Shown: positions 14,898-26,736 of the stretch, in pieces
Layout of the letters: each line of letters starts with the position of its first letter
How positions within the stretch are numbered: position 1 is the stretch's first letter
Source of the DNA: Gemmata massiliana
GTDB taxonomy: Bacteria; Planctomycetota; Planctomycetia; Gemmatales; Gemmataceae
DNA length: 64,000 bases
Direction: 5' to 3'
Assembly: GCF_901538265.1 (NCBI RefSeq)
Contig: NZ_LR593886.1
Span: 7,213,738 to 7,277,737 of the forward strand
Notes under the pieces: generated by a model
What the model was told of the DNA's origin: nothing
The model's input: the letters and a program-made list of their open reading frames with translations, nothing else
Database searches by the model: none
Made by a program: the position numbers and the translations under genes

Positions 14898-15875
14898 ATG
14901 TCTACCGACGTGGCGGGCATCGCCAACCGCATCATTGCCAACATCGAGAAGGTCATCATCGGCAAGCGCCCGCAGCTCACGCTCGCGGTCGCGGCGTACT
15001 TCTCCGAGGGGCACATCCTGCTCGAAGACGTGCCCGGCGTCGCGAAGACGATGCTGGCCCGGGCGCTCGCGCGGAGCGTGGGTTGCACGTTCAAGCGCCT
15101 CCAGTGTACGCCGGACCTGCTCCCCACCGACGTGACCGGCGTGAACGTGTACAACCAGAAAACGGCCGAGTTCGAGTTCCGGGCCGGCCCTGTGTTCGCC
15201 CAAACGCTCCTCGCCGACGAAATCAACCGCGCCACCCCGCGCACCCAGGCCGCGCTGCTCGAAGCGATGGGCGAGCGCCGGGTGAGCGTGGACGGCCAGA
15301 CCTACGTGCTGAAGCCGCCGTTCCTCGTGATCGCGACGCAGAACCCGGTGGACCAGGAGGGCACGTTCCCGCTCCCGGAAGCCCAACTCGACCGCTTCCT
15401 GATCCGGCTGAGTCTCGGGTACCCGAGCATGGAAGAAGAGGGCAAGATGCTCTCGCGGTTACAGCTGGGGCACCCCATCGACGAGTTAAAGCCCGTCGTG
15501 ACGGCCGAAGACGTGATCGCGTGCCAGGAAGCGGTCCGCGGTATCCATGTGGACGAGAAGGTGAAGCGGTACATCCTCGAAGTGGTCCACGCGAGCCGCG
15601 ACAACGAGGACGTGCTCCTGGGCGGCAGCCCGCGCGCGTCGATCGCACTGTTCCGCACGGCCCAGGCGCTCGCCGCGGTCACCGGGCGCGACTTCGCGCT
15701 CCCGGACGACGTGAAGCGCATGGCACAGCCGGTCCTCGCGCACCGATTGATCCTGAAGCCCGAAAGCCGTCTCCGCAAGCGCACCGCCGCGGCCGTGGTG
15801 AAGGACTTGGTTGATGACGCGAAAGTACCGATCACCGACAAAATGAAAGCGACCCAGCAAGACTATTTCTCCTAA
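14898..15875 (+). CDS. MoxR-family AAA+ ATPase
   Basis: 325 aa from ATG 14898, with GGAAAG upstream. Walker A is degenerate, as in MoxR (GHILLEDVPGVAKTMLARAL); Walker B is VFAQTLLADEINRATP; sensor 1 is VIATQNPVDQEGTFPLPEAQLDRF; the C-terminal lid ends near QDYFS. MoxR ATPases act as chaperones, usually paired with a DUF58 protein that recruits VWA-type partners. The DUF58 gene is indeed downstream, but a 118-codon four-helix-bundle gene and purine-rich repeats separate them. Confidence 0.92.
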   Translation: MSTDVAGIANRIIANIEKVIIGKRPQLTLAVAAYFSEGHILLEDVPGVAKTMLARALARSVGCTFKRLQCTPDLLPTDVTGVNVYNQKTAEFEFRAGPVFAQTLLADEINRATPRTQAALLEAMGERRVSVDGQTYVLKPPFLVIATQNPVDQEGTFPLPEAQLDRFLIRLSLGYPSMEEEGKMLSRLQLGHPIDELKPVVTAEDVIACQEAVRGIHVDEKVKRYILEVVHASRDNEDVLLGGSPRASIALFRTAQALAAVTGRDFALPDDVKRMAQPVLAHRLILKPESRLRKRTAAAVVKDLVDDAKVPITDKMKATQQDYFS

Positions 15876-15879
15876 AGAT

Positions 15880-15986
15880 CGGAGAAGGAAAAAGGAAAAA
15901 GGCGAAAGGCAAAAAGGTCGGAGAAAGCAAAAGGCAAAAGCAGAAAGAAGAGAAGAAATCAAAGACCAAAAGGCAAGTAAAAGGGG
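15880..15986 (+). repeat. Purine-rich tract after moxR
   Basis: Begins about five bases after the moxR stop and is almost pure A/G (units like GAAGGAAAAAGG and GGCAAAAGG). A complementary pyrimidine-rich tract lies at 16401-16455, and a related purine tract follows hemP at 25396-25451. Confidence 0.7.
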
Positions 15987-16025
15987 TATGTTGTTCGCGT
16001 TTATCCCCGTATTTGGAGCCGCCCA

Positions 16026-16382
16026 ATGCCCCCATACGACATCACGGAACGGACGTTCGAGTTCGCAGTTCAAATCGTGGGCCTGTGCGTGCGACTCGGC
16101 GAGCGCCCGGGCGCACCGCGGCGGATCAGCGACCAACTGTTGAAGGCGGGAACGTCCATCGGAGCCAACGCCGAAGAGGGACAAGCGGGACAGAGTCGCG
16201 CCGACTTCATCAGTAAGAACGCAATCGCCCTCAAAGAAGCGCGAGAGACGGCGTACTGGCTCCGCCTCCTCAAGCGAACTCTGCTCGTCGGTTCCAGCGA
16301 AGTCGAAACGCTGCTGGCAGAAGCCGAAGAACTCAAGCGAATACTCGGTGCCATCGTTTGCCGCGCGAAGGAAAACGCTTGA
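16026..16382 (+). CDS. Four-helix-bundle protein (23S rRNA intervening-sequence/Avd-like)
   Basis: 118 aa from ATG 16026, with GGAG nine bases upstream. Diagnostic tracts are FEFAVQIVGLCVRL, RRISDQLLKAGTSIGANAEEGQ, FISKNAIALKEARETAYWLRLL and LLAEAEELKRILGAIV, matching the 'four helix bundle protein' family found in rRNA intervening sequences and as the Avd accessory of diversity-generating retroelements. No reverse transcriptase is nearby. The gene is a cassette between moxR and DUF58, flanked by inverted purine/pyrimidine tracts, with a 17-bp palindrome over its stop codon. This suggests a mobile or domesticated insertion. Function unknown; probably nucleic-acid binding. Confidence 0.88.
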   Translation: MPPYDITERTFEFAVQIVGLCVRLGERPGAPRRISDQLLKAGTSIGANAEEGQAGQSRADFISKNAIALKEARETAYWLRLLKRTLLVGSSEVETLLAEAEELKRILGAIVCRAKENA

Positions 16383-16396
16383 GGCACGGTGCCTCA
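16380..16396. terminator. Palindrome over the four-helix-bundle stop codon
   Basis: TGAGGCAC-G-GTGCCTCA is a perfect inverted repeat with 8-bp arms that includes the TGA stop. It is followed by a T/C-rich run, so it could act as a terminator or mark the edge of the inserted cassette. Confidence 0.5.
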
Positions 16397-16400
16397 TTCG

Positions 16401-16455
16401 TCTTCTTTCCCCGCATTCGTTTTTCCTTTTCTCTTTTTCCTTTTGCCTTTTTCAA
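16401..16455 (+). repeat. Pyrimidine-rich tract before the DUF58 gene
   Basis: Nearly all T/C (TTTTTCCTTTTC and TTTTTCCTTTTGCC units); its complement matches the purine tract after moxR. It occupies the position where the DUF58 ribosome-binding site would be expected. Confidence 0.65.
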
Positions 16456-16457
16456 AG

Positions 16458-17828
16458 ATGCGTTGGTTTCTTGTAATCGTCGCACTCATCGGCGCCGCGA
16501 TCGCGCTCCAGGCGGGGCTGGTCGCGTTCGCAGGGTACGTGCTGCTCGGTGTGTACCTGCTGTCGCGTTATTTGGCACGCAGATGGGTGCGCGACCTCAG
16601 CGCGGCGCGCGAGTGCGATTCGGTCCCGCGCGAAGTGGGCGAAACGACCGAAGTCACCGTGACGCTCACCAACACCGGGGCGATTCCGATCGCGTGGGTG
16701 CTGGTCGAGGATCTGCTACCGGACTTCGCGGTGAAGGCCCGCACGCCGCGTATTACGGTCAAAGGCAAGCGCGTTCACGTCGTGACCCTTCGCGGGAAGC
16801 AAACGAAGACGATCAAGTACAAGGTCACGTTCGCGATGCGCGGGTACTACCCGCTCGGGCCGACGCTGCTCGAAACCGGCGACGTGTTCGGGCTGCACCG
16901 GCGCCACCGCGTGATCGGGAAACCAGTTTACGTGATGGTGTACCCCAAGGTCGTTCCTCTACCCAAATACAACTTCGTGTCCGAACGACCGATCGGGGAA
17001 GTGCGACTCCAGAACCGGCTCTTTGAAGACCCGACTCGGACCGCGGGCGTTCGACAGTACGTGATGGGCGACCCGCTCCAGCGCGTCCACTGGAAGGTGA
17101 CCGCGCGCACGGGTCAGCTCCACAGCCGCATTTACGAACCCACCACGCTCGCCGGCGCAACGATCCTCGTCGACTTCCACCAGGACGGTTACCACAAGCG
17201 CGGCGAGCCGCACCGCTCGGAACTCGTGGTCACTACAGCCGCGAGCATCGCCTACGCGGTGTCGGTGCTGAACGTGCAAGTCGGGTTCGCGAGCAACGGG
17301 CGCGACGCCGCCGATCGCATCCGGGAAGAATCGCTCGCCGCGGAATCGCCCGAAGCGCAAGCCGAAGGGCATGCGACGCGCGACGAGGCCCGGGACCGGT
17401 TCGCACTAAACGAAGAGAGCGACCGCGTTCGGCCGGTCGTGGTGGACACGCGGCGCGGGTTCGATCAGTTCCAGCAAATCCGCGAAGCACTCGCGCGGCT
17501 CGAATTCACGGACGCCTTCACCTTCGCGCAACTCGCGTTAGAAATGGCCGCGCGCATGCCGCGCGACGCAACGGCGATTGCCGTACTCCCGCGGGTGCCG
17601 GTCGAAACGGCGATCGCCCTGGGTACGCTGCGCAGACAGGGGTTCGCGGTGAGCGTGATCCTCATCGGGCTGGACGAAAACCACAAGCTCGAAGCGCACG
17701 GGCGCCTGCTCGCTGAAACGGTTCGCGACATCCGGTACGCGAATACCGTGGAAGAACTGGCGACCCTCGGCGCGAACACGGCCGCTCACAGCCCGGCTGC
17801 ATACACGGTCGATATACCATTGGGGTAA
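16458..17828 (+). CDS. DUF58-domain protein, MoxR partner
   Basis: 456 aa from ATG 16458 (MRWFLVIVALIGAAIALQ). A GTG 23 codons upstream would encode only a Phe-rich translation of the pyrimidine tract and was rejected. Two membrane helices occupy residues about 1-40. A beta-rich region follows (VTVTLTNTGAIPIAWVLVEDLLP). The DUF58 core includes VRQYVMGDPLQRVHWKVTARTGQLHSR, where family members carry the conserved D-x-x-R-x-I-x-W-like motif, and a VWA-like C-terminus follows. No Shine-Dalgarno is visible, probably because the repeat inserted right before the start. DUF58 proteins work with MoxR ATPases in envelope complexes. Confidence 0.85.
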   Translation: MRWFLVIVALIGAAIALQAGLVAFAGYVLLGVYLLSRYLARRWVRDLSAARECDSVPREVGETTEVTVTLTNTGAIPIAWVLVEDLLPDFAVKARTPRITVKGKRVHVVTLRGKQTKTIKYKVTFAMRGYYPLGPTLLETGDVFGLHRRHRVIGKPVYVMVYPKVVPLPKYNFVSERPIGEVRLQNRLFEDPTRTAGVRQYVMGDPLQRVHWKVTARTGQLHSRIYEPTTLAGATILVDFHQDGYHKRGEPHRSELVVTTAASIAYAVSVLNVQVGFASNGRDAADRIREESLAAESPEAQAEGHATRDEARDRFALNEESDRVRPVVVDTRRGFDQFQQIREALARLEFTDAFTFAQLALEMAARMPRDATAIAVLPRVPVETAIALGTLRRQGFAVSVILIGLDENHKLEAHGRLLAETVRDIRYANTVEELATLGANTAAHSPAAYTVDIPLG

Positions 17829-25218: not shown

Positions 25219-25395
25219 ATGAGCGACACGGAATTGGAAGAAGACCGCGACGAGGCTCCGGACACGGTCGGACCGGACCGAACCATCAAGGCGGACGAAC
25301 TGTTCGCCGGCAAACGCGAGGTGTGGATCGACCTCGACGGGGTGCGCTATCGTTTGCGCATCACCCGGCGCGGGAAGCTGATCTTGCAGAAATGA
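25219..25395 (+). CDS. hemP: Hemin uptake protein HemP-like
   Basis: 58 aa from ATG 25219 (MSDTELEEDRDE), with GAAAGG upstream; an alternative TTG lies five codons earlier. The C-terminus VWIDLDGVRYRLRITRRGKLILQK is the HemP signature (I-x-H/L-x-G-x-x-Y-x-L-R-x-T-x-x-G-K-L-I-L). HemP is a small cytoplasmic activator of haem-uptake genes in some proteobacteria. It stands alone here, divergent from the DUF1559/PepSY/propeller group, and is followed at once by a purine-rich repeat. Confidence 0.8.
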   Translation: MSDTELEEDRDEAPDTVGPDRTIKADELFAGKREVWIDLDGVRYRLRITRRGKLILQK

Positions 25396-25451
25396 AGAAG
25401 GAAAAAGGAGAAAGGCAAAAGGAAAAAGTAAAGGACACAAAAGCAAAGCAG
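25396..25451 (+). repeat. Purine-rich tract after hemP
   Basis: Starts immediately after the hemP stop and shares the string AGAAGGAAAAAGGA and later AAAGGCAAAA with the tract after moxR (15880-15986). Confidence 0.6.
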
Positions 25452-25502
25452 TAAAGCTCCCCTCGCGCCAGTTCAAGCGCGTGCCCACATTACTCAAAGC
25501 CC

Positions 25503-25553
25503 AAAGCGTTCGGGGCGCGCGATGGAAGATCCATCGCGCGCCCCGAACGCTTT
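25503..25553. terminator. Perfect 24-bp hairpin between convergent genes
   Basis: 25503-25526 pairs perfectly with 25530-25553 around a 3-nt loop (AGA). It lies between hemP (plus) and the TlpA-like gene (minus), so it would serve as a bidirectional terminator. No strong T-run follows on either side. Confidence 0.75.
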
Positions 25554-25578
25554 GAGCCCCTCTGCGAGAGGAACCGAA

Positions 25579-26736
25579 TTAGCCCTTCGCCTTGATCGCG
25601 GCCTTCACCAGCTCTTCGATCGCCGCGTCGACCTTGTCGTTACCCGGGTTGCCGACCCACTTGTGCCGGATCACGCCGGTGTGGTCGATCACGTACAGCG
25701 TGGGGAACGCGCGCACGCGGTACTTCTTCAGCACCGGGCTTTCCGGGCCGTTGTCCCACCAGTGGGTCCACGGCATCTTCTCGCCTTCCAGGAACTTTTC
25801 GAGCGTTTCCTTCTTGTTGTCCGCGCTCACGCTGATGAGCTCAAACGGCTTGCCCTCCATCTTCTTCACCAGGTCGCGCTCGTGCGGGATCATCGCCTTG
25901 CACGGCCCGCACCACGTGGCCCAGATGTCGAACAGGACGACCTTGCCCTTGTAGTCGGAGATCTTGACCTTCTTACCGTCGAGGGTCATCGATTCGACTT
26001 CCGGCGCGGCCTTGCCCACGACCACCGAGGTCACGGCCTTCAGGTTCTCGATCTCCTTGGTCGCGAGGTCGCCCACCGTGGGGCTCTTGGGGGCCGACGG
26101 GTTGATCTTCGCGTTCGGGGCCTCCTTCGCGGCCAGTTCCAGCATGGCGGTCGCGTCCTTCACCATGAGCGCGATCTGCTTCTCGTCCTCTTCCTCTTCA
26201 ATCGCCTGCGCGATCTTGTACCCGCGGATGAACGTCGCGACGCCCTTCGTGTCCTTGTCGGTGGCCTTCTCGGAGACGGCCTTGATGAGCTTGTCGCCCG
26301 GTTCGCCCAGCCGCATCGCGGGAACGAGCAGGTCCCGAACCTTCGCGCTGGCCGCGTGGTGCAGGGCGATCATCTGGGTCGCCTTGTCCACGTCCTCGTT
26401 GTTCGCGCCGATGCGCCCCGCGATTTGCACGACGAACGCGGCGGCATCGAACCCGACCTCGTCCTTCGGGTCGTCCTTCGCGATCTCGAACGCCTTGCCC
26501 GCGGTAAGGAGCACGAGCTCCTTCATCTCGCCCTGAATCGCCCGCGCGTCGCCGGGGTTCTCGGCCTTCGAGAGCTGGGTTGCGAGTTCCTTGTTCTCGT
26601 CCTCGAACTTCTTCTTGAGGGCGGCGAACTTCTCGGCCCGGTCGGTCTTCGGCCCATCGGCCGGCTTCTTGTCTTGTGCGTAGGCGACCCACAGGCCCAC
26701 GGACAAGGACAGCGCGGCGGCACAAAGCAGGCGCAT
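25579..26736 (-). CDS. Secreted TlpA/thioredoxin-like protein with helical N-domain
   Basis: 385 aa from ATG 26736 (MRLLCAAALSLSVGLWVAYAQ), with AAGGAC upstream and a signal peptide. Residues about 25-230 are Lys/Glu/Ala-rich and helical. The thioredoxin fold starts at APEVESMTLDGKKVKISDYKG, with the redox motif WATWCGPCK at about residue 272 and the cis-Pro in RVRAFPTLYVID. TlpA-like proteins reduce disulfides in the periplasm, often for cytochrome maturation. It is monocistronic here; the substrate is unknown. Confidence 0.88.
   Translation of the reverse strand: MRLLCAAALSLSVGLWVAYAQDKKPADGPKTDRAEKFAALKKKFEDENKELATQLSKAENPGDARAIQGEMKELVLLTAGKAFEIAKDDPKDEVGFDAAAFVVQIAGRIGANNEDVDKATQMIALHHAASAKVRDLLVPAMRLGEPGDKLIKAVSEKATDKDTKGVATFIRGYKIAQAIEEEEDEKQIALMVKDATAMLELAAKEAPNAKINPSAPKSPTVGDLATKEIENLKAVTSVVVGKAAPEVESMTLDGKKVKISDYKGKVVLFDIWATWCGPCKAMIPHERDLVKKMEGKPFELISVSADNKKETLEKFLEGEKMPWTHWWDNGPESPVLKKYRVRAFPTLYVIDHTGVIRHKWVGNPGNDKVDAAIEELVKAAIKAKG

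Follow-up and report, generated by a model that had tools for sequence, protein, structure and literature searches.

Inverted heptamer arrays around a four-helix-bundle gene in the moxR-DUF58 junction of Gemmata massiliana suggest a small insertion element without a transposase

The four-helix-bundle (FHB) gene that lies between moxR and a DUF58 gene in Gemmata massiliana is probably the resident of a small (about 0.5 kb) insertion element without a transposase, in which the FHB protein is cognate to the arms that enclose its own gene. The element resembles the intervening sequences (IVS) of 23S rRNA as well as the REPIN-RAYT system, and membership in neither is claimed here. By the window we mean the whole 64-kb stretch of DNA that was analysed, taken from a genome of 10.1 Mb in a single contig (G000).

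Results

The cassette between moxR and DUF58

The host gene upstream of the insert is moxR (14898-15875, plus strand), encoding an AAA_3 ATPase (PF07726, E=1.2e-63), and the host gene downstream encodes a DUF58 protein (16458-17828, plus strand; PF01882, E=1.6e-11). A preliminary description had placed a 118-codon FHB gene between the two, and the open reading frame at 16026-16382 (plus strand) indeed matches PF05635 (23S_rRNA_IVP; E=1.2e-19, 70.9 bits with a curated cut-off of 33.8) and TIGR02436 (E=1.1e-24, 86.8 bits with a cut-off of 24), and only these families. A palindrome with 8-bp arms, TGAGGCAC-G-GTGCCTCA, can be read directly from the sequence over the FHB stop codon (16380-16396), as had been described.

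The insert is bracketed by a purine tract (15880-15986, plus strand, purine fraction 0.87), the best-paired core of which is AAGGAAAAAGGAAAAAGGCGAAAGGCAAAA at 15885-15914, and by a complementary pyrimidine tract (16401-16455, plus strand, pyrimidine fraction 0.89) with its core at 16420-16449. Their run scores of 43 and 33 exceed the best scores of 20 and 18 obtained in 60 first-order Markov simulations of 64 kb, and the two align with each other as an inverted repeat (score 17.5), so that the cassette has the terminal inverted repeats expected of an insertion sequence or a MITE. The preliminary description regarded the tracts as low-complexity recombination ends. The ends are inverted, but they are more aptly called heptamer arrays, particular to each FHB lineage; those in the window are inverted arrays of a unit of about 7 bp, approximately AAAAGGC, and not undifferentiated purine and pyrimidine runs. 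The proposal that the tract had replaced the ribosome-binding site of the DUF58 gene held up, since the 3' tract reaches almost to the DUF58 ATG and leaves no ordinary ribosome-binding spacer, and comparison of spacers in relatives likewise shows the 3' arm standing in place of the one before the start codon.

Further sites in the same genome were noted. At about 25388-25600 of the window an AAAAGGC-type purine tract just past a stop codon is followed by a long perfect palindrome, GCGTTCGGGGCGCGCGATGGAAGATCCATCGCGCGCCCCGAACGC, without a gene, and a near-perfect gene-less hairpin of the window tract type at G000:C1:9702262-9702379 has an extra complementary CCGGCGAGTGCGGG stem outside the tract. 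A second FHB gene (locus L116, 9813-10310; G000:C1:509429-509653) overlaps the ends of both its neighbours and is without strong arms (score 14). These neighbours are an oxidoreductase and an alpha/beta hydrolase gene, which rules out a reverse transcriptase beside it.

Inverted arms accompany the FHB gene family

FHB genes were collected from 59 relatives, with up to 20 kb fetched around most of them, and arms were scored by aligning the 300-bp upstream flank locally with the reverse-complemented downstream flank (score at least 15). Inverted arms were found at 60 of the 69 FHB genes of this Gemmataceae set, as compared to 25 of 986 other genes at the same loci (27 related genomes); since some FHB loci are orthologous to one another, the 69 loci do not amount to 69 independent events. 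Direct orientation gave 10 and reversed orientation 2 of 69, ruling out a direct-repeat composite architecture. Nine of the 69 genes had no detectable arms, the second copy of the window genome among them. Most FHB genes tested, far beyond the window locus, thus have ends of the kind from which a small mobile cassette bounded by inverted repeats had been proposed.

The same was observed at larger distance. GTDB genomes were searched with an FHB alignment, without regard to the flanks, which left 80 loci in Acidobacteria, Bacteroidota, Proteobacteria, Firmicutes, Verrucomicrobia, Chloroflexi, candidate phyla and others, about ten phyla. In these other phyla 68 of 77 loci had inverted arms and 10 of 77 direct ones, as against 14 of 385 when flanks were paired between different loci. 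Judged from these genome comparisons, the inverted-arm architecture is evidently typical of the FHB gene family across about ten phyla.

The arms have a marked internal order, with a mean identity of 0.65 at a lag of 7 and 0.63 at a lag of 14, compared to about 0.26 at lags unrelated to this period. Of the 60 armed FHB genes, 53 have a G-skewed 5' arm (40 above +0.3 and 2 below -0.3). Over 111 cassettes with clear heptamers the units conform to the grammar KNNYYRG, approximately (T/G)NN(Y)(Y)(A/G)G, with the last G present in 97%, and the log-likelihood of 278 compares with 210 +/- 4 when positions are permuted within heptamers. The window unit fits this common grammar only loosely.

The arms follow the FHB protein

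The heptamer differs between loci and follows the FHB protein. Arm similarity and FHB protein similarity are correlated in Gemmataceae (Mantel rho 0.20, greater than all 2000 permutations, p<=0.0005). Many close FHB pairs occupy orthologous positions, and the trend persists once every pair that shares flank homology is removed. That the Spearman values stay modest (0.20-0.22) reflects the predominance of distant pairs, which are uninformative. Among non-syntenic pairs an arm score of at least 15 was reached by 0-1% of the distant ones, by 24% at a relative protein score of 0.6-0.7, and by 42% above 0.7. Related arms at unrelated sites are found, for example, at loci L071 and L068 (GAGGACA), L041 and L070 (GGGGTGAA), and L076 and L062.

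FHB arms also match 69 further places in the fetched loci of their own genomes, where 6.3 were expected from other genomes (about ninefold; permutation p<=0.0005). Of these recurrences 14 come from the window genome, whose loci were mostly fetched for carrying the tract, and about 55 are unbiased. The recurrences are often gene-less hairpins. Doubled TTAGTGG was found only in Thiohalocapsa, the FHB gene of which bears that arm (reciprocal counts). Counts of AAAAGGC tracts per genome were uninformative, since reversing the pattern for the control gives almost the same low-complexity word. In arm pairs with the L067 heptamer from four genomes, counted by eye, the G-rich arm comes first in 24 of 24; in 1.4 Mb, a strict detector picked out no more than 7 inverted pairs without a gene, 5 of them G-first and 1 C-first.

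A second orphan family, GxxExxY (TIGR04256; loci L181-L210, e.g. L205 at G000:C1:5161365-5161703), has inverted arms at 22 of 27 genes in the same genomes, as against 16 of 270 in a mixed-flank control. The GxxExxY arms have a weaker period of about 9 bp with CAC-RRA units and are A-skewed rather than G-skewed. That two orphan families have two arm grammars argues for a family-specific link between gene and arms.

The junction and other sites in relatives

The spacing between moxR and DUF58 was compared at the 30 nearest moxR loci. The statement that the two genes are normally adjacent was too broad: in 10 of the 30 DUF58 starts less than 45 bp after moxR, which makes adjacency frequent in this group but by no means general. 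The remaining loci include varied inserts, and DUF58 was not found within 1.5 kb of moxR in genomes G008 and G013. In G002 the junction contains an FHB gene, 70% identical, with AAAAGGC/AAAAGTC-type tracts, and the G000 and G002 copies are mutual nearest relatives. A GC-rich palindrome is present in G009 and G012, another inverted repeat in G014, and gene-less inverted tracts of CACAGATTACGCAGAAGACACAGATT and AACCACAGAGACACAGAGAAG type beside moxR in G013 and G033; the G013 tract best matches the arms of the GxxExxY gene of G013 itself (24.5 vs 13). At the moxR-DUF58 junction inserts bounded by inverted repeats come and go; the comparison did not show a single arrangement shared by every relative between unrelated flanks. 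Other small unidentified ORFs, some of them mutually related, occupy the gap in G015, G016 and G006 (loci L156, L157 and L168).

Two further sites were compared. At the L068 site G012 has a cassette and the syntenic position in G000 is a plain 62-bp spacer; palindromes take its place in G009 and G016, and in G001 there is a heptamer hairpin without a gene. The L067 site contains a palindrome in G000 and G009 and a gene-less hairpin in G016, the latter best matching the GxxExxY cassette of G016 itself (29 vs 13.5 for the next). At the compared sites the arms fill almost the whole space between stop and start codons. At the two filled and unfilled sites compared, the spacers of which are divergent, no clear target-site duplication was seen. 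One palindrome family, of CCACCCGCTCGTTAACACTCGCGGTTCGCC type (L152 and L153, the moxR-DUF58 junctions of G009 and G012; L291 and L292, the L067 site of G009 and G000), fills junctions that bear FHB cassettes elsewhere.

As for the proposed mobility of the cassette, it is favoured by junctions that are cassette-free in close relatives and by the related arms of related FHB genes at unrelated positions, but no transposase, target-site duplication or direct transposition event was seen. Movement would not be frequent, since species with high synonymous divergence share several FHB cassettes as orthologues. The G000 and G002 moxR-DUF58 cassettes keep a similar tract although synonymous divergence is saturated, so that the arms are maintained and not decaying. 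The FHB gene itself is functional and under purifying selection (pN/pS 0.12-0.29 in 11 pairs; 0.29 for the window gene and its G002 orthologue), and where both neighbours are in tandem it is co-directional with them in 50 of 51 loci; both findings favour the insertion element.

Discussion

Insertion element and alternative explanations

The element would consist of an inverted array of units of about 7 bp, its 5' arm mostly G-rich, followed by the FHB gene and a second, inverted array, and it would have inserted in the moxR-DUF58 operon junction and replaced the spacer from stop to start codon. We infer that the FHB protein, which is pentameric in solved relatives, recognises its own arms, either as a DNA hairpin or as an RNA stem, and that the element moves. 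Such recognition may spread or maintain both gene-bearing cassettes and gene-less hairpins, and strand transfer or synthesis would then be provided by host enzymes. As the transcribed insert would fold into a stem-loop, RNA processing may make it tolerable to the host, as in the case of the 23S rRNA IVS; the IVS analogy and the co-directional bias described above make this plausible. A reverse transcriptase seems unnecessary, as RVT_1 was not matched in five genomes with armed FHB genes (G024, G025, G027, G031 and G043); four of them are drafts (87-97% complete), and the dependence is thus only weakly disfavoured. Several observations speak against the insertion element: hairpins of a given heptamer in genomes lacking the matching FHB gene, the armless genes among the 69, the rarity of movement, and the lack, within the cassette, of any enzyme for cutting or joining DNA; nor was a target-site duplication or polymorphism within a species seen.

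The arms might instead serve mainly as a double-stranded RNA stem that is cut by RNase III, freeing the FHB insert from the operon mRNA as an intervening sequence, an explanation that we consider possible but not the leading one. It is compatible with an insertion element, but the arms would then serve RNA processing. The protein family and the stem-enclosed layout are those of the Coxiella IVS, a stem-enclosed S23 ORF excised from rRNA by RNase III (PMC4990558), and the co-directional bias of FHB genes is in line with this explanation. The predicted RNA fold of the window cassette pairs both arms, but is only modestly better than shuffles (z -1.8). RNase III, moreover, needs no specific sequence, and gene-less hairpins and lineage-specific heptamers would be superfluous.

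Alternatively, the hairpins could arise and spread by other means (replication slippage, another enzyme or a REP/RAYT-like system), with FHB genes merely carried between the arms. Most intergenic hairpins are gene-less and FHB cassettes rarely move, in line with such a passenger role, and hairpins are found in genomes without a matching FHB gene (the L067 type in G000, G009 and G016; the GTGTTTG type in G001). However, the arms enclose FHB genes far more often than any other genes, the GxxExxY arms have a different grammar, and the arm type follows the FHB type at unrelated sites. We consider this explanation unlikely.

It is also rather improbable that the cassette is an inherited, immobile regulatory unit, in which the arms act as operator or RNA-binding sites for regulation of the FHB gene itself or of the host operon. 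The purifying selection on the FHB gene speaks for it, as do some cassettes that stay at orthologous sites and retain their tract type although synonymous divergence is saturated. On the other hand, the operons around different cassettes are unrelated, sister genomes are without the cassette, and related arms occur at unrelated sites. Finally, tracts with a period of 7 are frequent in these genomes (85 per Mb), but that the arms are ordinary low-complexity intergenic sequence beside an unrelated gene is hardly credible in view of the control genes, mismatched flanks, permutations and Markov simulations.

Relation to known systems

The insertion element proposed here is closest in kind to the IVS of 23S rRNA that encode S23/IVP in Coxiella and Leptospira; these also have a PF05635 ORF within stem-forming terminal inverted repeats, measure about 0.4-0.6 kb and lie in transcribed DNA (PMC4990558). 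We group the FHB cassette with them on account of the common gene family and stem-enclosed layout, although location and, probably, arm structure differ: the window cassette lies between the protein genes moxR and DUF58 and not within a 23S rRNA gene. At least two 23S motifs together were not found near any FHB locus tested, which rules out insertion of these cassettes in rRNA.

In REPIN-RAYT systems, too, a gene has cognate hairpin repeats and gene-less repeat copies in the same genome, but the FHB protein is not a Y1/RAYT transposase and its arms are heptamer arrays instead of GTAG-tagged palindromes. MITEs are similar in being short gene-less intergenic inverted-repeat elements that match the ends of a gene-bearing form; the gene-bearing form of the FHB element, in contrast, has no transposase and no clear target-site duplication was seen, and its arms are locus-variable tandem arrays. 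Structural homology with PF05635 (solved relative 2GSC) has been reported for Avd of diversity-generating retroelements (PMC10053308), whereas FHB cassettes are without a reverse transcriptase and the neighbours in the window are moxR and DUF58. In a search of open-access full text, no paper was found that connects FHB/S23 or GxxExxY genes with arms of this kind.

Heptamer repeats in Xanthomonas and other bacteria

Structures of the S23/FHB family, an orphan family in terms of function, have been solved (2RLD and 2GSC). Three loose ends may be one: this orphan family, the sporadic rRNA IVS that encode FHB proteins, and the heptamers of Xanthomonas, Nostoc and Beggiatoaceae, for which no source gene has been described. 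A gene family that travels with a cognate repeat array in many phyla is a testable candidate for the origin and spread of such arrays, and the many pairs of FHB protein and heptamer offer ready-made tests of binding specificity. Tentatively, we suggest an undescribed class of mobile element that would use neither a transposase nor a reverse transcriptase: a small pentameric four-helix protein would propagate its cognate G-rich heptamer as inverted arrays, the G-rich strand pointing inward on both sides. This class might be the source of the Xanthomonas heptamers and perhaps of those in cyanobacteria and Beggiatoaceae, with a parallel GxxExxY class that uses units of about 9 bp.

GGGAATC arrays have been described in Xanthomonas, where each genome has 70-75 inverted pairs (Rehm et al. 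2015, PMC4692102). Like the FHB arms, the GGGAATC and GGGGA(C/T)T heptamers of Xanthomonas and Nostoc are G-rich and intergenic and form many inverted pairs; the excerpted text of that paper presents them as G-quadruplex-forming and names no source gene. The Xanthomonas FHB gene sits inside GGGAATC arms, and GGGAATCGGGAATC occurs 188, 208 and 244 times in three Xanthomonas genomes, compared to 0, 0, 0 and 1 in four other FHB-bearing genomes. TAACTGA heptamers occur in Beggiatoaceae, cyanobacteria and Bacteroidetes with no evident mechanism (MacGregor 2015, PMC4679880), and TTATCAG, obtained from their reverse complement by a shift of phase, conforms to the FHB heptamer grammar, a lead rather than a test. 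The Xanthomonas FHB protein matches 2GSC (XCC0516), which is a pentamer (PMC4990558). In Xanthomonas arboricola the FHB gene orthologous to XCC0516 (locus L283, 2943-3393) lies between genes for a biotin carrier (accB-like) and a biotin carboxylase (accC-like).
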